This document shows positions 18,166 to 46,717 of a stretch of DNA of 64,000 nucleotides, piece by piece. Source of the stretch: Streptomyces sp. V4I2 (GTDB lineage: Bacteria; Actinomycetota; Actinomycetes; Streptomycetales; Streptomycetaceae). Numbering within the stretch: position 1 is the first letter of the stretch; each line of letters starts with the position of its first letter. The notes under the pieces were generated by a model. The model did not search any database and was not told the DNA's origin. It saw only the letters and a program-made list of their open reading frames with translations. Position numbers and translations under genes: made by a program. The stretch spans positions 4,278,001-4,342,000 of the forward strand of contig NZ_JAUSZM010000003.1 in the NCBI RefSeq assembly GCF_030817655.1. The letters are read 5' to 3'.

Positions 18166-19608
18166 ATGGCGTCGTCAATGGTGACCTCGTCCCAGTCCCC
18201 CAGACCACCGCAGCCCAACCTCGCGTTCCGGCAGTTGCGCGGACAGCGCTCGCCGGCCGAGTTCGCCGCTGCGGTGCGGCGGGCCGCCCGCGAGATCGGC
18301 GAGCGGGTCAGCTGCGACGCACGCTATGTCGGCCGGGTCGAGGCGGGTGAGATCCGCTGTCCCAACTATGCGTACGAACGGGTGTTCTTGCACATGTTCC
18401 CCGGCCGCACGCTCACCGACCTCGGGTTCGCGCCCCGCTCGTCCGTACGCGGACGACGGGCGCACGCCCCCGAGGACGCGCCCCCCTCCGGCGTCGCCGG
18501 CCCGGCGTACACCGCCGGTGAGACACCAGGGGCGTACGAGCCGTATGACACGCAGGACCCGTACGAGACGCACGACAACCACGAGGAGAGCGACGTGCTG
18601 CGTCGCGCATTCATGACCAGCGGAGGCGCCACCATGGCCGCCGTCTCGCTGGGCCCCTTGACACTCGCCTTCGACGCCGCGGCCGCGGAACGCCCCGTCC
18701 GGCGCGTCGGGACGAGCGAGGCGGGCGCCCTCGAAGAGGCCGTCCGCAGCATCCGGCTGCTCGACGACCGGCACGGCGCGGACGGCCTCTACCGTCGCGC
18801 GGCCGCTCCACTGCGCGCCGCCTACGCCCTGCTCGACGCCCACACGACCCGGCAGACGACCGCCGAACGGCTCCACTCGGGCGCCGGTGAACTGGCCATC
18901 TCGGTGGGCTGGCTGGCCCACGACTCGGGCCGCTTCGACGACGCCCGCTCGCACTACGCCGAGGCGCTCGCGACCGCCCGGATGACCGGGGACCCGGGCC
19001 TTGAGGCACACGCCTTCTGCAATACGGCCTTCCTCGCCCGGGACGCGGGCCGGCCGCGCGAGGCGGTACGCGCCGCGCAGGCCGCGCAACGCGTCGGGCG
19101 CCCGCTGGGCTCCGCCCGGCTGATGTCGCTGCTCGCGCTGCGCGAGGCGGGCGGCTGGGCCGGGCTCGCCGACCGCACCGGCTGCGAACAGGCACTCGCC
19201 CGCGCGCAGGCCCTCTTCGAGCGAGGCCACTCGGACGCCGACCCCGAGTGGATGAGCTTCTACGGAGAGGCCGAGCTGGAGGGCCTCGAGGCGCAGTGCT
19301 GGTCGACACTCGGCGACTGGCGGCGCGCGGCCCGGCACGCGGGCCGTGCGGCGCAGCTCCAGGACCCGCACTTCACCCGGAACATCGCCCTGTACACGGC
19401 GGAACTGGCGGACGACCTCGCGCGCGGGGGCCGCCCCGACGAGGCCGTGGCGGCCGGGATGCGGGTACTGGACCTGCTGGGCGAGGTCCAGTCGTCCAGG
19501 ATCCAGACGATGCTCGCGGGCACGGCACGGGTGCTGCTGCCGCATCGGCGGGCGTCGGGGGTGTCGACGTTCCTGGAACGCCATGCGAGTCTGCCGCGCA
19601 CGGCGTAG
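18166..19608 (+). CDS. NsdA-like regulator with TPR-type helical repeats
   Basis: 480 aa. An N-terminal segment (residues 10-70, QRSPAEFAAAVRRAAREIG and RYVGRVEAGEIRCPNY) resembles a degenerate XRE helix-turn-helix. After a low-complexity linker come LRRAFMTSGGATMAAVSLGPL and alpha-helical TPR-like repeats (from about 190 to the end), the layout of NsdA and related Streptomyces proteins that restrain development and antibiotic production. The ATG at 18166 has AGAGGA upstream; 18178 is an alternative. Paralogs exist, so I do not give it the nsdA name. Confidence 0.75.
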   Translation: MASSMVTSSQSPRPPQPNLAFRQLRGQRSPAEFAAAVRRAAREIGERVSCDARYVGRVEAGEIRCPNYAYERVFLHMFPGRTLTDLGFAPRSSVRGRRAHAPEDAPPSGVAGPAYTAGETPGAYEPYDTQDPYETHDNHEESDVLRRAFMTSGGATMAAVSLGPLTLAFDAAAAERPVRRVGTSEAGALEEAVRSIRLLDDRHGADGLYRRAAAPLRAAYALLDAHTTRQTTAERLHSGAGELAISVGWLAHDSGRFDDARSHYAEALATARMTGDPGLEAHAFCNTAFLARDAGRPREAVRAAQAAQRVGRPLGSARLMSLLALREAGGWAGLADRTGCEQALARAQALFERGHSDADPEWMSFYGEAELEGLEAQCWSTLGDWRRAARHAGRAAQLQDPHFTRNIALYTAELADDLARGGRPDEAVAAGMRVLDLLGEVQSSRIQTMLAGTARVLLPHRRASGVSTFLERHASLPRTA

Positions 19609-19620
19609 CCGCGGGCGGCA

Positions 19621-20217
19621 CTACGCCACGAGGTGCCCCACGTCGTTCCAGCTCTCGATCGCCGGCTCCCCGTAAGCCCAGCCGAGCACCGACAAGGACG
19701 TCGGATTGAGCCTGATCCGCGCCGCGAAGTCGATCGGCAGCCCCAGCCACCTCGCACCGATGGACCGGAGTATGTGCCCGTGCGCGAAGATCAGCACGTC
19801 CCGGTCCGCCGCCCGCGCCCAGGCGACGACCTCGTCCGCGCGGGCCGTCACCTCGGTGAGCGACTCGCCCTGCGGCACGCCGTCGCGCCAGATGAGCCAG
19901 CCGGGCCGGACATCCTGGATCTCCTGCGGGGTCATCCCCTCGTAGGAGCCGTAGTCCCACTCCATGAGCGTGTCCCAGGTGCTCGCGCGCTCGCCGAAAC
20001 CGGCGAGTTCGCACGTCTCACGCGCGCGTACCAGCGGGCTGGTGCGCACCTCGGCCCCGGCGAGACCGTCCAACGGCGCCCGGTGCAGGCGCTCGCCGAG
20101 CAGTTTGGCGCCGCGCCGGCCCTCTTCGAGGAGCGGTACGTCGGTCCTGCCGGTGTGCTTACCGGACAGCGACCACTCCGTCTGTCCGTGCCGGGCCAGC
20201 AGGATGCGCGGTGCCAT
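19621..20217 (-). CDS. Histidine phosphatase (phosphoglycerate mutase-like) family protein
   Basis: 198-aa acid phosphatase-type enzyme with the RHGQTEW catalytic motif at residues 8-14 (His9 forms the phosphoenzyme), conserved [13 protein letters not shown], acid donor Glu in [11 protein letters not shown] and second His in FAHGHILR. The substrate is unknown. It ends 12 nt from the convergent NsdA-like gene. Confidence 0.88.
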
Positions 20218-20425
20218 GAAGAGACCCTTCCGGGAGAAATGAGAGGCGGGGCCCCTCCATCATCGCGCACGCTGTACCAGGGTCCGCCCGAGGGCAACCC
20301 GGCGGGCGATCTCTGCGTCTTTGAGGGCCGGGGGCGTGCCACGGAGGCGCGCGCATGCGCCGTAAAGTGACACGACCGGACCAGGACCACCGGACGGGCG
20401 CGACGTGAAGGGGGAGGGCGATCGG

Positions 20426-21379
20426 ATGCCGCAGACCGAGACACCGGGCATCGAGGTGGCCCCGCGACCCCGGCTGCGCTGGTGGACCGAGCTGCCACTG
20501 ATCGTGCTGGTGTACGCCTGCTACTCCGCCGGCCGGCTCCTCGCCCGGGGCGACGTCACCAGTGCCGTCGACCACGGCCTGACGATCCTGCGCGTCGAGA
20601 AGGTCCTGCACATCAACGCCGAGCATCCCCTCAACCGGCTCTTCACGAGCGAGGCGTGGATCGGTGTACCGGCCGACTTCTGGTACGCGTCGCTGCACTA
20701 CATGGTCACGCCCGTGATCCTGGTCTGGCTGTTCAGGTCCCGTGCCGTGCACTACCGCATGGCCCGCACCTGGCTGATGACGTCCACCTTCATCGGCCTG
20801 ATCGGCTTCACCCTGCTCCCGACCTGCCCGCCCCGACTGCTCTCCCCCGGCTACGGCTTCGTCGACACGATGGCCCAGTACAGCTCGTACGGCTGGTGGG
20901 GCGGCGAGGCGAGCGCCCCGCGGGGTCTGGGCGGTATGACGAACCAGTACGCGGCCATGCCGAGCCTGCACGTGGGCTGGGCGGTGTGGTGCGGTGTGAT
21001 GCTGTGGAAGTACGGCGGGACGCGTACCGCGAAGGTCGCCGGTGTCGGCTATCCGTTGGTGACCACGATCGTGGTGATGGGCACCGCGAACCACTACTTC
21101 CTCGACGCGGTCGCGGGGGCGGCCGTGATGGGGGCCGGGCTGCTGCTCGCGCCCTACGTCATGCGGTACGGGGGCCGGGTCATGGAGCCGATGCGGGTCC
21201 GGTTCGCGGGCATCGCGGCGGTCTCTCCCGGCGCATCCGCCTCAATTGTCAGTGGCGGATGCCAGACTTCCGCGAGTGAGCACATTCCACGGCAGCGCGA
21301 GTCACAGTTCGCAGGCGGAGCCGAACCGAGTGCCTCTCCCACGGACGCGGGAGACGGGGCTGCGGCACCGGCTCGCTGA
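20426..21379 (+). CDS. PAP2-superfamily membrane protein (inositol phosphorylceramide synthase/AUR1-like)
   Basis: Membrane phosphatase or phosphotransferase of 317 aa with five to six helices. PAP2 motifs are visible: AMPSLHVGWAVW (catalytic His) and NHYFLDAVAG (His and Asp). The ATG at 20426 has GGGGAGG 9 nt upstream; a GTG at 20405 is less likely. The last 45-50 residues are low-complexity and hydrophilic, and their DNA carries the promoter and first codons of the nuclease operon. That tail may be a readthrough extension. The substrate is inferred only broadly as a lipid phosphate. Confidence 0.78.
   Translation: MPQTETPGIEVAPRPRLRWWTELPLIVLVYACYSAGRLLARGDVTSAVDHGLTILRVEKVLHINAEHPLNRLFTSEAWIGVPADFWYASLHYMVTPVILVWLFRSRAVHYRMARTWLMTSTFIGLIGFTLLPTCPPRLLSPGYGFVDTMAQYSSYGWWGGEASAPRGLGGMTNQYAAMPSLHVGWAVWCGVMLWKYGGTRTAKVAGVGYPLVTTIVVMGTANHYFLDAVAGAAVMGAGLLLAPYVMRYGGRVMEPMRVRFAGIAAVSPGASASIVSGGCQTSASEHIPRQRESQFAGGAEPSASPTDAGDGAAAPAR
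21246..21268 (+). promoter_or_regulatory. Candidate DNA-damage (PafBC-type) promoter of the nuclease-helicase operon
   Basis: TTGTCAGTG (21246-21254), then 8 bp, then CAGACT (21263-21268). The published mycobacterial/actinobacterial RecA-independent damage promoter is tTGTCRgtg-N8-TAnnnT. All nine bases of the first element and the exact spacing match; the -10 has C in place of the first T. The predicted transcription start is at about 21275-21276, exactly the GTG of the nuclease gene, so the message would be leaderless. Confidence 0.68.
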
Positions 21380-22469
21380 GCTGCGCGGTCCCGAGGTACC
21401 GGCCAAGGCGCTGGACGCCCGCGCCCTTGCGGCCCTCGCCGCCAATCCCGGCTGCAAGCGGCGGGCGATCCTGGACGGCGCCGGGGTGGACAAGGCGGCG
21501 CTGGCGGACGCGCTCGGCTCGCCGTCGGCTTTCGGCCAGTCGCAGTTCGCGCTCACGCGGGGCAACGCGTTCGAGTCGCGGGTCAAGGCGGACGGCGGCG
21601 CGGAACTGCTGCGGCTGGTGCACGAGAAGCTGGACCGCAAGGCCGAGCCGCCGTCGGACGCCGAGGTGCCCGACCTCACCGCGATCGGCCCCCAGGGCCG
21701 CACCGCCCGTACGGCCCTCGCCCTGCGCGACGCCACCGCGGCCGGCTGCTGGACACTCCTCGACCACCCGATGCTCGCGCTCGAAGTCGCCGGTTCGCCC
21801 GCCTTCCTGGAGCCGGACGCGGTGGTCGTGCACCCGGACGGCGGCTGGACGGTCGTGGAGATCAAGTCCTTCCCTATGCTGGACGGCTCGGCCGACCCGG
21901 CGAAGGTGGGCGCCGCCGCCCGGCAGGCCGCGGTGTACGTGCTGGCACTGGAGGAAGTGGCTGCCCGCCTCGCCCATGACGGAGGCCCGTCCCCGCGGGT
22001 GCGGCACCACGTCCTCCTGGTCTGCCCGAAGGACTTCTCCAACCTCGCCACCGCGTCCGCCGTGGACATCCGCAAGCAGCGCGCGGTGACCGCCCGCCAG
22101 CTGGCCCGCCTCACCCGCGTCCAGGACATCGCCGACGCCCTCCCCGAAGGCACCTGCTTCTCCCCCGACCGGCCCGCCGACGAGCTGACGGAGGCCGTCG
22201 AGGCGGTCCCGGCGACCTACGCGCCCGAGTGCCTGTCCGCCTGCGAGCTGGCCTTCCACTGCCGCGACCGCTCCCGCACGGACGGCGCGGTGACCTCCCT
22301 CGGCCGCTCGGTGCGCGCCGAACTCGGCGGCCTGACGACGGTCGAGGACGTCCTGGCGGCCGCCCGCGGGGAGTTGGGCGACCCGGACGATCCGGCGGTG
22401 GCGGCACTCAGAAGGGCCGCCGAGCTGCGGGCAGAGGCCCTCGGCCAGGGAGTGGCCGCATGTCGCTGA
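21276..22469 (+). CDS. RecB/Cas4-like PD-(D/E)XK nuclease with a four-cysteine Fe-S cluster site
   Basis: 397 aa (counted from the leaderless GTG). The nuclease core is readable: Glu100, Asp181 (FLEPDAVVV), Glu195-x-Lys197 (VVEIKSF) and the RecB-family QxxxY at Gln217-Tyr221. One N-terminal Cys60 (NPGCKRR) and a C-terminal Cys319-x3-Cys323-x5-Cys329 give the 1+3 cysteine pattern that holds 4Fe-4S in Cas4, AddB and Dna2 nucleases. It should cut single-stranded or end DNA with the helicase encoded two genes on. No cas genes are nearby. The stop overlaps the next ATG by 10 nt. Earlier in-frame TTG and GTG starts lie inside the promoter motif. Confidence 0.8.
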   Translation: MSTFHGSASHSSQAEPNRVPLPRTRETGLRHRLAELRGPEVPAKALDARALAALAANPGCKRRAILDGAGVDKAALADALGSPSAFGQSQFALTRGNAFESRVKADGGAELLRLVHEKLDRKAEPPSDAEVPDLTAIGPQGRTARTALALRDATAAGCWTLLDHPMLALEVAGSPAFLEPDAVVVHPDGGWTVVEIKSFPMLDGSADPAKVGAAARQAAVYVLALEEVAARLAHDGGPSPRVRHHVLLVCPKDFSNLATASAVDIRKQRAVTARQLARLTRVQDIADALPEGTCFSPDRPADELTEAVEAVPATYAPECLSACELAFHCRDRSRTDGAVTSLGRSVRAELGGLTTVEDVLAAARGELGDPDDPAVAALRRAAELRAEALGQGVAACR

Positions 22470-24058
22470 TCTCCACCCTCGCCAGGCTCGAAGCCGTCAG
22501 CACCGGCCGCGCCCAGCCCGCCGCCACCGTCCGGCACCGGCGGCTGTCCGAGCACCCCCTGGTCTTCGTGCCGCTCACCACCGCCGGTGAGGCCGGGGCC
22601 CCGCTCGGCGCGCTGGTGGGGACCGACCGGGACACCCCGCACCTGCTGGTCGTACCGCAGCCGCGCGACCGTGACCTCAGGTTCGCGTTCCTGGCGGAGC
22701 TGGCCGACGTCGTCCTGCCCCACCTCGACGCGTACGCCGGGTCGGTCGAGGCCGCCGAGCGCACCGAGACCGACCCGGAGACCGGCAAGCGGGTCAAGGT
22801 CGAGGTCGAGCTGTGCACGGACGCCCCGCAGCTGATCGTGCCGAGCCGCGCGGGCGTCGAGTTCGTACGGCTGCTGGGGCGCTCCATGCGCTTCAGGCGT
22901 ACGGCGGAACAGGACCCGGAGACGCCGTACCCCGCCCCGCCCCGGCTGCCCTTGCTGGGCCGCTGGCTGACCCACTTCGGGGAACGCGCCCGCGTGCCCG
23001 GCTCCTCGCTGCTGCTGGCCATGACCGATGTGCTGGCCCGGCACTGGGCGACCGGCCAGTCCACCCTGGAGGACCAGCACCTGGGCGCGCTGCTCGCCTG
23101 GATCGACCCGCCGGACGGCCTGTCCGGCGCCGAGGCCGCCCTCCGGGCCGAGCTGCGCCGGGACACCCAGGGCCAGCTGCTGTGTCCGCCCGCCGGCCCG
23201 GCCACCGACCCGGCGTTCGACAACAAGCTCCTCGCCCCCGCCCTCGAGCGCTACGACCGCGCCCGCCTCGCCCTCGCCGCCGCCGAGGACGGCCTGCAGG
23301 CCGACGACCGGCTCGGCATCCTCACCGCCGCCGAGCAGGAGATCCGCGCTCTGGTGGCGAGCCGGACCCGCCCCACCTGGGACGCGGTGTGGCGTGGCCT
23401 GGAGCTGCTGCGGGAGCTGCCCGAGGGCGCGCACGTCGAGGAGCGGTGGACCCGCGACCGCTGGTCGTTCACCGGCCACCGCGACCGCGTGCTGGCCGGC
23501 GAGCCCCCGCAGCCGCGCCGCGACGACGCGGTCACCGCCGCGAACAAGCTCGCCGCGCGCGAGCGCGAGCAGGCCCGGCTCGAGGCGCAGGAAGCCCTGG
23601 ACGACCCGCTGGTGATGGCGGGCCGGCGGCTGTCCGGCGAGGCGCTCGCGGGCGAGGTCACGGACGTCGTCATGACGTACAGCGAGGGCAAGCGCCCGAG
23701 CCCGCGCCCGTTGGTGACCGTACGGACGGACGACCGGCCGCACCTCGGGGAGCGGGTGAAGGTGTACCGCTCGCTGGGCGGGAAGCCGCAGGCGGCCGAG
23801 TTCGTGGGCTTCGCGGACGAGGGTGCCCTGGTGGTCCTGCGGATCGTCGACAAGATGGGCCGCGGCAAGGAGCCCGAGGTGGGGTCCGTGCCCGAGAAGG
23901 GCGACCCGGTCTGCTTCACGCTGTTCGAGCACGAGCAGCGCGGCGGCGCCAAGCTGCCCGACCCGGAGGACACGCCGTGGACGCACGGCGGACCGCCGGG
24001 CGAGGCCGCCGCCGTGCCAGAAGTCTCCGACCCCGTGACCGAGGAGGACGTGCTGTGA
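22460..24058 (+). CDS. Unrecognised 532-aa protein between nuclease and helicase
   Basis: I recognise no family. The N-terminal 110 residues are mixed alpha/beta (HPLVFVPLTTAGEAG, HLLVVPQPRDRD), the centre is helical and Arg/Glu-rich (to about 400, with AANKLAAREREQARLEAQE), and the last 120 residues are beta-rich (PLVTVRTDDRPHLGERVKVYR, GFADEGALVVLRIVDKMG), like the small barrel that UPF1/SMUBP2-type helicases carry as domain 1B. No catalytic signature is visible. Tight overlap with both neighbours (10 nt and GTGA) argues for a fixed-ratio complex. I infer an adaptor or DNA-binding subunit. Confidence 0.72.
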   Translation: MSLISTLARLEAVSTGRAQPAATVRHRRLSEHPLVFVPLTTAGEAGAPLGALVGTDRDTPHLLVVPQPRDRDLRFAFLAELADVVLPHLDAYAGSVEAAERTETDPETGKRVKVEVELCTDAPQLIVPSRAGVEFVRLLGRSMRFRRTAEQDPETPYPAPPRLPLLGRWLTHFGERARVPGSSLLLAMTDVLARHWATGQSTLEDQHLGALLAWIDPPDGLSGAEAALRAELRRDTQGQLLCPPAGPATDPAFDNKLLAPALERYDRARLALAAAEDGLQADDRLGILTAAEQEIRALVASRTRPTWDAVWRGLELLRELPEGAHVEERWTRDRWSFTGHRDRVLAGEPPQPRRDDAVTAANKLAAREREQARLEAQEALDDPLVMAGRRLSGEALAGEVTDVVMTYSEGKRPSPRPLVTVRTDDRPHLGERVKVYRSLGGKPQAAEFVGFADEGALVVLRIVDKMGRGKEPEVGSVPEKGDPVCFTLFEHEQRGGAKLPDPEDTPWTHGGPPGEAAAVPEVSDPVTEEDVL

Positions 24059-25386
24059 CCGCCTTCGATCCCGGCGCCGAGGCTTCCCGCGCCACGGAGG
24101 CGATCCTCCACGACACCCTGCACGGCTCGGCGCGCGGTGTCGTCGTCGACTCCCCGCCCGGCGCCGGCAAGTCGACGCTCGTCGTGCGCGCGGCGCTGGA
24201 ACTGGCCGACGCGGGGCGCCCGTTGATGGTGGTCGCGCAGACCAACGCCCAGGTCGACGACCTCGTGCTGAGGCTCGCGGAGAAGAACCCCGACCTGCCG
24301 GTGGGCCGGCTGCACAGCAGCGACGCCGACCCGTACGACAAGGCGCTCGACGACCTGGCGCAGGTACGGAAGTCCGCGAAGGCCGGCGACCTCACCGGGC
24401 TCGCGGTCGTGATCTCCACGGCCGCCAAGTGGGGGCACGTCAAGGTCGACGAGCCGTGGCGGCACGCCATCGTCGACGAGGCCTACCAGATGCGCTCGGA
24501 CGCGCTGCTCGCCGTGGCCGGGCTCTTCGAGCGGGCGCTGTTCGTGGGCGACCCGGGCCAGCTGGACCCGTTCGCGATCGTCGGCAGCGAGCAGTGGGCG
24601 GGCCTGTCGTACGACCCCTCCGGCTCCGCCGTGACGACCCTCCTCGCGCACAACCCCGAGCTGCCGCAGCACCGCCTGCCGGTGTCCTGGCGGCTCCCGG
24701 CGTCGGCCGCGCCCCTGGTCTCCGACGCCTTCTACCCGTACACGCCGTTCCGCAGCGGCACCGGCCACGGCGACCGGCGTCTCACCCTCGCGGTCCCGTC
24801 GGACGGCTCCGGCCCCGACCGGGTGATCGACGAGGCGGCGGAATCCGGCTGGGGCCTGCTGGAGCTGCCCGCACGGCACACCCCGCGGACGGACCCCGAG
24901 GCGGTACGGGCCGTGGCGACGGTCGTCCGACGCCTGCTCGACCGGGGCGGCGCGGCCACCTCGGAGCGCTCCCCCGACCCCACGCCCCTGACCGCCGACC
25001 GGATCGCCGTGGGCACGGCACACCGGGACCAGGCCGCGGCGGTCCGCGCGGCCCTGGCCGACCTGGGCGTCCCGGACGTGACCGTCGACACGGCGAACCG
25101 CCTCCAGGGCCGCGAGTACGACGTCACGGTCGTCCTCCACCCGCTCTCCGGCCGCCCCGACGCCACCGCGTTCCACCTGGAGACAGGCCGCCTGTGCGTC
25201 CTGGCCTCCCGCCACCGGCACGCCTGCATCGTGGTGTGCCGAGCCGGCGTCACCGACCTGCTCGACGACTACCCGTCGACGGAACCGGTCCAGCTGGGAA
25301 CGCTGGTGAAGTTTCCGGACGGCTGGGAGGCCAATCACGCGGTGCTGGCACACCTGGCCGAGCACAGGGTGGCCTGGCGACCGTGA
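24055..25386 (+). CDS. Superfamily 1 helicase, UPF1/Dna2-like
   Basis: 443-aa ATPase. Walker A SPPGAGKST at residues 33-41, Walker B IVDEAYQM at 139-146, motif III FVGDPGQLDPF at 163-173, motif V-like VDTANRLQGREYDVTVV and motif VI-like LASRHRHACIVV. The Q-dependent order fits SF1B Dna2/NAM7/UPF1 helicases, but the usual 1B barrel is absent, which may be supplied by the preceding protein. The GTG start overlaps the previous stop and has GAGGAGG upstream. The last 22 codons are repeated 159 bp downstream. Confidence 0.84.
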   Translation: MTAFDPGAEASRATEAILHDTLHGSARGVVVDSPPGAGKSTLVVRAALELADAGRPLMVVAQTNAQVDDLVLRLAEKNPDLPVGRLHSSDADPYDKALDDLAQVRKSAKAGDLTGLAVVISTAAKWGHVKVDEPWRHAIVDEAYQMRSDALLAVAGLFERALFVGDPGQLDPFAIVGSEQWAGLSYDPSGSAVTTLLAHNPELPQHRLPVSWRLPASAAPLVSDAFYPYTPFRSGTGHGDRRLTLAVPSDGSGPDRVIDEAAESGWGLLELPARHTPRTDPEAVRAVATVVRRLLDRGGAATSERSPDPTPLTADRIAVGTAHRDQAAAVRAALADLGVPDVTVDTANRLQGREYDVTVVLHPLSGRPDATAFHLETGRLCVLASRHRHACIVVCRAGVTDLLDDYPSTEPVQLGTLVKFPDGWEANHAVLAHLAEHRVAWRP

Positions 25387-25539
25387 CCGGCACAATCCAC
25401 GCCGCCGACCGCCATGTCGCCATGTCGCCGGACAGAGTCCGGCACGCCGCCGGAGGCGGCCGATGAATACAGCCCGGACGGCTGGGAGGCGAACCACGCG
25501 GTGCTGGCACACCTGGCCGCGCACAGGGTGGCCTGGCGA
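25315..25539 (+). repeat. 66-bp direct repeat: the end of the helicase gene duplicated downstream
   Basis: Bases 25315-25380, encoding the last helicase codons (PDGWEANHAVLAHLAEHRVAW), recur at 25474-25539 with three mismatches, offset by 159 bp. The copy lies in non-coding DNA and reads AHLAAHRVAW in an open frame without a helicase core. It is a remnant of a local duplication. Nothing else is recognisable between 25387 and 25736 except further short GC-rich echoes. Confidence 0.85.
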
Positions 25540-26276: not shown

Positions 26277-26873
26277 ATGAGCAGCACACGCGAAGAGACC
26301 GTCGCCGACCGCTTCGACGTCTCGGGGGTCACCCCGGACGGAGCCGCCTGGCTCGCCTCGGCGGGAGCGTATCCGCGCAGCACCCTCGCACTCTGGGACG
26401 AGCGCCCCGACGCCCCGGTCGTCCTTCCCTGCGGCACCGCCTTCGACGTCGTCGGCGCGCCCGCGATCTTCGGGCGCCGGATGCTGGACCGGCTGTGGGA
26501 CGAGGGCCCGGGGTCGGGGCCGGTCGCGGCGTTCCGGGGCCGGATGCTGCTGTTCGCCGCGCCCGGCACGGCACAGCGGCTGCCCGCGCTGCTGCACTGG
26601 GAGGAGTTCGGGCGTACGAAGGCCATTCCGCCGCTGCTGTGCCACGGCACCGGCGACGCGGTGACCGTCCCCGCACCGATGGGCGCCGCCGGCTCCGGCA
26701 CTCCGTCCGGCTGCCGCTGGCTGGTCGCCCCGGACACCCGTCACCCCTGGCTGCCGGGCCCCGAGGTGCTGCTCTGGGCGGCCGTACGGGCGGCCCGCGC
26801 GGCCGTGCGGATATCGATTTTTCCCCCGGCCGAACAGGATGCTAAGGTCTACGACGTCAGCAGGCGCCGCTAG
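26277..26873 (+). CDS. Bifunctional DNA primase/polymerase-like protein (N-terminal domain type)
   Basis: 198 aa resembling the numerous Streptomyces proteins related to the primase-polymerase N-terminal domain: WLASAGAYPRSTLALWDERPDAPVVLP and GTAFDVVGAPAIFGRRMLDRL, then WLVAPDTRHPWLPGPEVLLW. The metal-binding acidic triad of an active primase is not evident, so it is probably not a polymerase. The stop codon TAG is made by bases 8-10 of the tRNA-Lys gene, so the two overlap by 10 bp. A palindrome GGCATATGCC lies at 26175-26184 upstream. Confidence 0.68.
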   Translation: MSSTREETVADRFDVSGVTPDGAAWLASAGAYPRSTLALWDERPDAPVVLPCGTAFDVVGAPAIFGRRMLDRLWDEGPGSGPVAAFRGRMLLFAAPGTAQRLPALLHWEEFGRTKAIPPLLCHGTGDAVTVPAPMGAAGSGTPSGCRWLVAPDTRHPWLPGPEVLLWAAVRAARAAVRISIFPPAEQDAKVYDVSRRR

Positions 26874-26937
26874 CTCAGTTGGTTAGAGCAGCTGACTCTT
26901 AATCAGCGGGTCCGGGGTTCGAGTCCCTGGCGGCGCA
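26864..26937 (+). tRNA. tRNA-Lys (CTT), copy 1
   Basis: A 74-nt cloverleaf: acceptor stem GCGCCGC/GCGGCGC, discriminator A, D-arm with AGTTGG, anticodon stem GCTGA/TCAGC with loop CTCTTAA (anticodon CTT, Lys AAG), T-arm with GGTTCGAGTCC. CCA is not encoded. Its first 10 bases are also the last codons of the upstream gene. Two identical genes follow in the window. Confidence 0.97.
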
Positions 26938-26946
26938 CAGACACGA

Positions 26947-26976
26947 AAAGGCCTCTCGCGCGAGCGAGGGGCCTTT
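26947..26976. terminator. Terminator hairpin after tRNA-Lys copy 1
   Basis: Stem AAAGGCCTCTCG with CGAGGGGCCTTT (11 of 12 paired) around a 6-nt loop, 10 nt after the tRNA and 30 nt from the stop of the convergent protease gene. Flanking A and T bases let it work in both directions. Confidence 0.7.
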
Positions 26977-40539: not shown

Positions 40540-40626
40540 ACCGCCGACCATTGGTCGGAAGCACCCCCGCGGACCAGGTAGTATTTTCTGTGTCGTCGGC
40601 CGCGAAGAGCGGTCGGCGGGAGTCAC

Positions 40627-40700
40627 GCGCCGCTAGCTCAGTTGGTTAGAGCAGCTGACTCTTAATCAGCGGGTCCGGGGTTCGAGTCCCTGGCGGCGCA
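40627..40700 (+). tRNA. tRNA-Lys (CTT), copy 2
   Basis: Identical in all 74 bases to copy 1, same anticodon CTT and no encoded CCA. A TAGTAT at 40579-40584 may be its -10 element. Confidence 0.97.
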
Positions 40701-40706
40701 CGATGT

Positions 40707-40753
40707 CGAGGGCGAGGCGTGTTCGCAGAAAGCGCGAACCGGCCTCGCCCTCG
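40707..40753 (+). terminator. Terminator hairpin after tRNA-Lys copy 2
   Basis: CGAGGGCGAGGC (40707-40718) pairs with GCCTCGCCCTCG (40742-40753), with an inner GTTCGC/GCGAAC stem. A very stable hairpin directly after the tRNA. Confidence 0.7.
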
Positions 40754-46416: not shown

Positions 46417-46604
46417 GCGATTCCCCTCACACTCCAGATGGAAATGTCCGCACCTGTACACGTTTGCCAGTTTCTCAACTGTCTTCCCGACGCGCATGCT
46501 GACGGTCCGAATGATGTACGGCGGCCCGCTCCGGGCCGCCCTCCCGCCCCCGTCGGCGGTCCGGAGCACCCTCCGCCATCCGGTAAGCTCGTGCAGGTCA
46601 GCGG

Positions 46605-46678
46605 GCGCCGCTAGCTCAGTTGGTTAGAGCAGCTGACTCTTAATCAGCGGGTCCGGGGTTCGAGTCCCTGGCGGCGCA
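46605..46678 (+). tRNA. tRNA-Lys (CTT), copy 3
   Basis: Identical to the other two copies in all 74 bases. It is 188 bp upstream of the NlpC/P60 start on the opposite strand. Confidence 0.97.
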
Positions 46679-46685
46679 CAGACAC

Positions 46686-46717
46686 GACAGGCCCCCTGCT
46701 CAGGCGGGGGGCCTGTC
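46686..46717 (+). terminator. Terminator hairpin after tRNA-Lys copy 3
   Basis: GACAGGCCCCC with GGGGGCCTGTC, an 11-bp stem 8 nt after the tRNA. Confidence 0.7.

Follow-up and report, generated by a model that had tools for sequence, protein, structure and literature searches.

The DNA analysed here, referred to as the window, is a stretch of 64,000 nucleotides from Streptomyces sp. V4I2, whose genome comprises 11.1 Mb in 4 contigs. Three overlapping genes lie on one strand of the window. They are named NUC, for an iron-sulphur (Fe-S) nuclease of the PD-(D/E)XK type; MID, for a middle protein of 532 amino acids (aa); and HEL, for a helicase of superfamily 1B (SF1B). The overlap of the three genes, noted in an initial annotation of this DNA, is confirmed by the list of open reading frames and amounts to 10 bases between NUC and MID and 4 bases between MID and HEL. 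Most probably, the cassette specifies a helicase-nuclease that resembles Dna2 and Bad, is built from three subunits and is inducible by DNA damage, with assembly and regulation as predicted below. The features of the locus are as follows.

21276-22469, forward strand: NUC, Fe-S PD-(D/E)XK nuclease, 397 aa from GTG 21276; the frame is open to TTG 21246
22460-24058, forward strand: MID, middle subunit, 532 aa
24055-25386, forward strand: HEL, SF1B helicase core with domains 1A and 2A, 443 aa from GTG 24055
21246-21268, forward strand: RecA-NDp (PafBC)-like promoter; -35 element TTGTCAGTG at 21246-21254, 8-base spacer, -10 element CAGACT at 21263-21268
21453-21455, forward strand: codon of the first Fe-S cysteine in NUC (Cys60 from GTG, Cys70 from TTG)
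21816-21866, forward strand: PD-(D/E)XK core of NUC (D191, E205 and K207 in TTG numbering)
22230-22262, forward strand: codons of the last three Fe-S cysteines in NUC (Cys319, Cys323 and Cys329 from GTG)
22550-23449, forward strand: MID residues 31-330, predicted DnaQ-like exonuclease fold without the catalytic DxE (fold match)
23612-23935, forward strand: MID residues 385-492, predicted end of a stalk and 1B-type beta barrel (fold match, best row IGHMBP2)
24151-24177, forward strand: Walker A motif of HEL (SPPGAGKST), invariant save S40, which is nearly invariant
24475-24489, forward strand: motif II of HEL (DEAYQ), from the alignment of HEL proteins
20405-21379, forward strand: upstream gene of a membrane protein that we take to be PAP2-like; its 3' end overlaps the promoter and the start of NUC

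MID was found in 136 of the 147 genomes sampled from the order, namely 129 of 132 same-genus genomes and 7 of 15 others. In a sample of the phylum it occurred in 12 of 346 genomes, ten of them of the same genus. Among the best 80 of 588 named relatives of MID, 79 were from Streptomyces and 1 was from an 'Actinobacteria bacterium', and the phages and viral contigs searched contained no relative. The order NUC-MID-HEL on one strand was kept in all 20 loci compared (15 divergent or out-of-genus, 5 core), with NUC of locus L033 in two pieces. A set of 115 core loci, which are the best-scoring ones and share some genomes with the 20 loci, gave the same picture: upstream, all 112 loci with 1 kb or more of flank had NUC; downstream, all 114 loci with 1.2 kb or more had HEL. 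NUC was missing from all 11 genomes of the order that have no MID, and HEL gave at most a 29-bit match in the Walker region there. The rarity of such neighbourhoods in other genomes, which the initial annotation had named as the result to speak against its proposal, was thus not seen. The exception is genome G343, in which HEL lies about 36 kb away from MID; genes that look transposase-like by eye stand beside this separated HEL (L202, 5387-6834). Distances among NUC, MID and HEL correlated over 31 loci (r of 0.83, 0.90 and 0.94), values that shared phylogeny inflates and could produce by itself. The arrangement of the three genes is not due to chance. As far as open-licence PMC papers go, the cassette appears to be undescribed: searches for papers on PLuB and TM0106 found nothing on the NUC-MID-HEL genes, and nothing was present in the term-matched passages of Streptomyces papers on the LexA regulon and on orphan proteins.

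NUC matched no Pfam or NCBIfam family at E<=10. Its AlphaFold model (pLDDT, the predicted local distance difference test score, 83.5) matched Cas4 (7mi4; Z 10.8, 4.3 Å, 199 residues), EXO5 (Z 9.2), RecE (8.9), and lambda exonuclease and MGME1 (8.4-8.5). The fold also matched AdnA (Z 8.4), AddB (7.9) and, over Dna2 residues 58-411, Dna2 5eaw (7.0); fold families missing from the VIA lists were not taken as excluded. The top Foldseek match was the Argonaute-associated Cas4 protein ACE1 (E 1.5e-4). The cysteine numbering of the initial annotation (Cys60, Cys319, Cys323 and Cys329) fits NUC read from GTG 21276. The last three of these cysteines were present in 31 of 31 aligned NUC proteins and the first in 30, the remaining one being an alignment gap. 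From the fold and the conserved cysteines, NUC is a RecB-type nuclease with a 1+3 cysteine pattern and a predicted Fe-S cluster. D191, E205, K207 and Q227 were intact in 10 aligned core NUC proteins. Single-sequence searches of Protein Data Bank (PDB) chains with NUC and with MID returned nothing. A profile of NUC retrieved two engineered helical-repeat proteins (2e-10 and 2.9e-7), which were read as a composition effect, and two weak matches.

HEL belongs to AAA_11/AAA_12 and has the core of an SF1B (Upf1-like) helicase. Its profile was nearest to Dna2 (5eaw 643-806, E 6.6e-12) and then to SMUBP2 (4b3f 206-265). In the single-sequence search, HEL residues 103-397 aligned with SMUBP2 residues 330-612. 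UPF1 came after Dna2 and SMUBP2 in closeness to HEL. HEL also matched 9kwf weakly, and a literature search for that structure listed a paper on acidophile helicases. Because the GTG of HEL lies within the end of MID and Walker A starts about 35 residues later, a 1B domain could not fit ahead of Walker A, in keeping with the earlier remark that the helicase lacks an obvious 1B barrel. This argument is based on the HEL gene of the window; the distance of 39-49 residues to Walker A in the aligned HEL proteins depends on where the sequences were cut and was set aside. The final part of the HEL coding sequence (25318-25359) recurs 3' of the gene at 25477-25518, with 2 differing bases in 42, as a partial tandem copy of the C-terminal end.

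For MID, the earlier description as a protein of no recognised family still stands: no NCBIfam family was found at E<=10, and the sole Pfam match, Caa3_CtaG (E 0.015), was sub-threshold. The structure prediction of MID alone that the initial annotation had called for was good (pLDDT 85.9). The first of all fold rows placed MID residues 385-492 on residues 36-142 of IGHMBP2 (4b3f; Z 9.6, 2.7 Å, 87 residues), a segment that we take to be its stalk and 1B domain. The Sen1 and SETX rows matched the corresponding segment. Helices stand ahead of the barrel, as a stalk would, and the barrel is at the end of MID, so that by a moderate fold match the C-terminus of MID presents a stalk and beta barrel in the place of an Upf1-like 1B domain, directly before domain 1A. 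NUC, MID and HEL match ordered stretches of Dna2/IGHMBP2 and therefore cover successive parts of such a chain. The proposal of a split, three-subunit machine whose middle protein supplies a barrel was thereby borne out at the level of fold (MID 385-492 against IGHMBP2) and gene organisation.

The barrel might instead be an unrelated small barrel, with MID merely keeping company with a nuclease and a helicase as their regulator or as a DNA clamp. Barrels of the FNR-like type reach Z 8.0-8.4, and the 1B assignment is without sequence-level support: the MID profile found no solved relative among PDB chains, only a single chance-like match. We nevertheless consider this explanation unlikely, as the top-scoring IGHMBP2 row shares its 1B segment with those of Sen1 and SETX, helices precede the barrel in the manner of a stalk, and in the loci examined, save G343, the next gene is a HEL that lacks 1B.

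The N-terminal part of MID (residues 31-330) matched residues 135-341 of archaeal family B DNA polymerases (VIA Z up to 9.1, 3.7 Å, 181 residues), presumably their DnaQ-like exonuclease domain. The acidic DxE of motif Exo I was sought at the position given by the aligned range of the fold match rather than by a residue map, and no acid occurred at residues 33-43 in 31 of 31 aligned MID proteins. Acids are found elsewhere (E44 in 29 of 31, E204 in 31 of 31, D205 in 30 of 31). Since MID has no acid at residues 33-43, its N-terminal domain is read, on the predicted fold, as a seemingly dead exonuclease-like domain.

The RecA-NDp consensus is TTGTCRGTG-N8-TANNNT. The -35 element and the spacing of the motif ahead of NUC fit this consensus, the first base of the -10 element does not, and GTG 21276 begins 7 bases past the end of the motif and 30 bases past its start. 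The alternative start, TTG 21246, sits in the -35 element. Of 112 core loci, 102 have TTGTCRGTG-N8-NANNNT ahead of NUC, and all 102 keep the GTG start; of the other 10, 8 have one mismatch in the -35 element and 2 have no motif in the stretch searched. In the host genome, 88 sites matched the pattern, compared with 4 for a reversed control pattern. The first base of the -10 element at the 63 TTGTCA sites was T in 33, C in 23 and G in 7, and 16 of the 23 CA-type elements read CANNAT. Downstream proteins were scanned at 14 of 30 fetched sites, and seven were repair or DNA-processing proteins, namely UvrA, UvrB, RuvC, a RarA-like ATPase, a Hel308-like helicase, DNA polymerase IV (dinB) and NAD-dependent DNA ligase, a fraction biased towards repair because the sites were chosen partly for familiar-looking first residues. 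The sites of DNA polymerase IV and NAD-dependent DNA ligase have C at the start of the -10 element (CANNNT), as does that of NUC. A CA-type -10 element also precedes a gene for a WYL-domain regulator. Motifs of this kind with a CA -10 element may form a second promoter class. The LexA-bound SOS box has the form GAAC-N4-GTTC with flanks; none was found at up to 3 mismatches in positions 18432-23204 of the window. The window-wide count of LexA boxes (57, compared with 26 in shuffles) was read as an effect of composition or coding and was not used. In mycobacteria, RecA-NDp promoters are the sites at which PafBC acts, and the DNA-damage regulon that it drives is independent of LexA and includes UvrABC, AdnAB, RecA, RuvA and RuvC (PMC8223512, PMC6789036).

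Several known systems resemble the cassette. Eukaryotic Dna2 has nuclease and helicase segments that are matched in order by NUC and HEL, but it is a single chain, whereas the cassette encodes three proteins. To our knowledge, Dna2 has no DnaQ-like domain. AddAB and AdnAB share with the cassette Fe-S nuclease folds, SF1 motors and end processing. Their motors are of the SF1A class, with the nuclease behind the motor, unlike the SF1B motor of the cassette. Bad of Geobacillus (WP_053413574) is like the cassette in combining an Fe-S RecB-type nuclease and an SF1B helicase with a central part between them, a conserved domain described as of unknown structure (PMC7430649). Bad is one chain of 1245 aa with a rare and sporadic occurrence, whereas the cassette consists of three genes, belongs to the genus core and has a DNA-damage-type promoter. 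A search for Bad-like fusions with PLuB_AAA (NF040671) was unspecific, with matches in 310 of 346 genomes and 0 over the cut-off.

The TM0106 family (TIGR03491) has its parts in the order of the cassette, that is, a PD-(D/E)XK nuclease, a DnaQ/RNase H-like fold and an SF1B helicase, fused in one chain where the cassette is split into three genes. Both of the fused TM0106-type proteins scanned contained RNase_H_2 and AAA_11/12, and PDDEXK_1 was over the cut-off in one. The kinship to TM0106-type fusions suggested by the initial annotation holds by sequence for HEL, which aligned with the TM0106 helicase at an hhalign probability of 99.3 percent; none was detected for NUC and MID. TIGR03491 was over the cut-off in 0 of 147 genomes of the order and 7 of 60 genomes of the phylum. 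A 1227-aa TM0106-like protein with weak family matches lies at L175 2434-6117 (genome G195), and its nuclease and helicase motifs look degenerate by eye. NUC and HEL are separate overlapping genes rather than one polypeptide as in Dna2 and Bad; because tests for a single-chain build and for a match over the family cut-off both came out negative, the cassette was not filed as Dna2, Bad or TM0106.

By analogy with fused TM0106, MID might be an active DnaQ-type exonuclease, which would give the system two nucleases. The fold match to polymerase B exonuclease domains, the place of RNase_H_2 between nuclease and helicase in both fused proteins scanned, and the conservation of E204 and D205 fit such a role. 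This is very improbable, however, given that the Exo I DxE place, as located from the aligned range, holds no acid in any aligned MID, and that the profile of MID shows no resemblance to the RNase_H_2 domains in four TM0106 proteins. The RNase_H_2 domains of TM0106 keep their acidic residues by eye, in contrast to the exonuclease-like domain of MID, which has no DxE.

A second, divergent version of the cassette has a fourth gene, UP, ahead of NUC-MID-HEL and was found in 15 genomes of the order sample. Its MID has 41-50 percent identity. This copy is the second one in 12 same-genus genomes and the only one among the matches listed in 3 others; some second matches in the MID list look like pieces of the core gene. 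UP is a conserved protein of about 280 aa; nothing in Pfam or PADLOC matched it above threshold, and no solved structure was a convincing relative. Strong matches to UP occurred in exactly the same 15 genomes, with a weaker one in G079, which has no cassette, and fragments in G039. In G079 the UP homologue (L204, 7667-10646) is preceded by a short protein that is HU-like by eye and followed by a 724-aa protein without a Pfam family.

Together with those on two plasmids, in Nonomuraea and in G195, 19 UP-type cassettes were available. A divergently transcribed SbcCD (Mre11-Rad50) pair stands beside 10 of the 19, in pieces on one plasmid. Genes of pPIWI-RE adjoin 6 and lie about 9 kb off in a 7th that also has SbcCD. 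One or the other adjoins 16 of the 19, and neither was present within the fetched flanks of the remaining 3. Independent events are fewer than these loci, because the loci belong to few clades. Wadjet was a neighbour in 3, type III restriction-modification (RM) genes in 3, and a type III RM remnant in a fourth. The three cassettes beside type III RM genes recall Bad, which adjoins a type III methyltransferase gene (PMC7430649). Compared with the plasmid SbcD, the linked SbcD proteins show 41-75 percent identity. Among 7 genomes with a linked SbcD that were searched, 5 hold another full-strength SbcD elsewhere (32-37 percent). Archaeal HerA-NurA is likewise a helicase-nuclease that is reported to work with Mre11-Rad50. 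Its genes are linked to those of Mre11-Rad50. The HerA-NurA protein families are unrelated to those of the cassette, of which only the UP-type version is linked to SbcCD.

Five aligned NUC proteins from a single divergent clade have an altered active site, with Arg for K207 in every one, Leu for E205 in 3 and a change of D191 in 2. Four of these five adjoin pPIWI-RE, and in the fifth (G124) it was not found within the fetched flanks. PprPDDEXK, which is divergent and next to UP, keeps by eye its D...ELK pattern and Cys-rich tail. Neither RecB nor SbcC is mentioned in the main text of the pPIWI-RE paper (PMC3702460). Two UP-type cassettes lie near the end of a contig or plasmid: one with SbcCD and Wadjet, which an 8.87-Mb contig carries 14-19 kb from its end (L182, G048:C1:1-20000), and one about 13 kb from the end of the linear plasmid NZ_CP108489. 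At L186 5420-8182, a fusion of UvrD helicase and PD-(D/E)XK nuclease stands beside type III RM genes and adjoins an UP-type cassette; this fusion and its type III RM context have already been described (PMC5704561).

These neighbourhoods raise the question of whether the cassette serves primarily in anti-phage or anti-plasmid defence, with the core copy as a defence locus that was domesticated or is widely retained. Besides the pPIWI-RE, Wadjet and type III RM neighbours, the location of two UP-type copies on plasmids and the weak PADLOC matches of HEL, which are to defence helicases, favour this. A core copy in 129 of 132 same-genus genomes and a DNA-damage-type promoter common to the cassette and repair genes argue the other way, as does the absence of all 12 marker genes of UP-type neighbourhoods, SbcCD included, near any of 85 core loci, of which 64 had 13 kb of flank or more. 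Overall, there is only a modest chance that defence is the primary role. Action on RNA or RNA-DNA hybrids, of which Upf1-like helicases are capable, would suit the closeness of HEL to SMUBP2 (nearly that to Dna2, with UPF1 next) and a MID barrel nearest to IGHMBP2, Sen1 and SETX. It is hard to reconcile with the Cas4/Dna2 DNA nuclease fold of NUC, the repair-gene promoter context and the SbcCD beside the second version, and we regard it as highly improbable.

The reading of the cassette as a damage-inducible helicase-nuclease has points against it. The -10 element, CAGACT, differs from TANNNT at its first base. The promoter is the single match in the window at up to 1 mismatch, and such a match is not rare by chance, as 17 of 100 shuffles also reached one. 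The case for the promoter draws on the 102 of 112 core loci, the one-mismatch -35 elements in 8 of the other 10, the 88 versus 4 genome sites and the repair genes. Identity around the motif in core loci averages 67 percent in the preceding 40 bases and 89 percent in the spacer, and only the spacer, the other -10 positions and the GTG count as independent conservation, because the -35 element and two -10 positions are fixed by the search pattern. The other 7 of the 14 scanned downstream proteins are not repair proteins or have no family. The -35 9-mer was absent from up to 3.5 kb upstream of MID (or to the locus end) in 23 of 23 non-core cassettes. The MID fold matches are moderate (Z 9.6 and 9.1) when FNR-type barrels, the best unrelated ones, reach 8.4 and fold models without clear relatives often reach Z 7-8, and Foldseek gave no match for MID at E<=0.001. 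By hhalign, MID (0.1 percent) and NUC (0.3 percent) are not detectably related to fused TM0106, also as trimmed domains, in a comparison whose TM0106 profiles are shallow (four fused sequences). Among the 7 genomes searched for a further SbcD, G005 had only a weak one and G025 had none.

Around the cassette, the PAP2-like gene lies upstream on the same strand in 78 of the 82 core loci whose flank reaches 2.5 kb or more. Further along the window, tRNA-Lys(CTT) genes lie within a 114-bp direct repeat in three copies (26843-26956, 40606-40719 and 46584-46697), 13.8 and 6.0 kb apart and 76 and 90 percent identical to the first. These repeats are possible integration sites.

Under the proposed three-subunit helicase-nuclease, a PafBC-type activator would switch on the operon after DNA damage and give a leaderless message. 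Translational coupling would let NUC, MID and HEL be made in step and then assemble. MID would dock its 1B barrel onto HEL and so complete a motor on single-stranded DNA, with 5'-3' polarity by analogy with Dna2 and Bad. The dead exonuclease-like domain of MID may hold NUC near the DNA entry, where NUC would cut the unwound strand. The core version would serve DNA repair, whether by processing ends or flaps or by mending gaps or forks. The second version, which has UP and often an SbcCD pair of its own, would play an equivalent part in defence or on the arms of replicons, where SbcCD would open the ends for it. The initial annotation had seen the cassette genes but not the promoter, nor that MID has an apparently inactive exonuclease-like domain, nor that a second version is linked to defence genes.

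A broader picture can be offered tentatively. The cassette may be a bacterial counterpart of resection by Mre11-Rad50 and Dna2, with three subunits and 1B in trans. The core version would be a damage-induced repair system of Streptomyces, and UP-NUC-MID-HEL a portable end-processing module in pPIWI-RE, Wadjet and restriction loci. In the pPIWI-RE clade, where NUC would have lost its PD-(D/E)XK residues, cutting might fall to the intact-looking Fe-S PprPDDEXK.

With no family match for two of the three proteins, the cassette is easily missed. The chromosomes of Streptomyces are linear, have unstable ends and pose many questions about repair, and a damage-regulated, Dna2-like machine in nearly all species would give geneticists a new and direct target. 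If a helicase has its 1B domain on a separate subunit, the role of 1B becomes testable by adding or removing it. The second version would connect Mre11-Rad50 and Dna2-like enzymes with defence loci in a way that can be tested.

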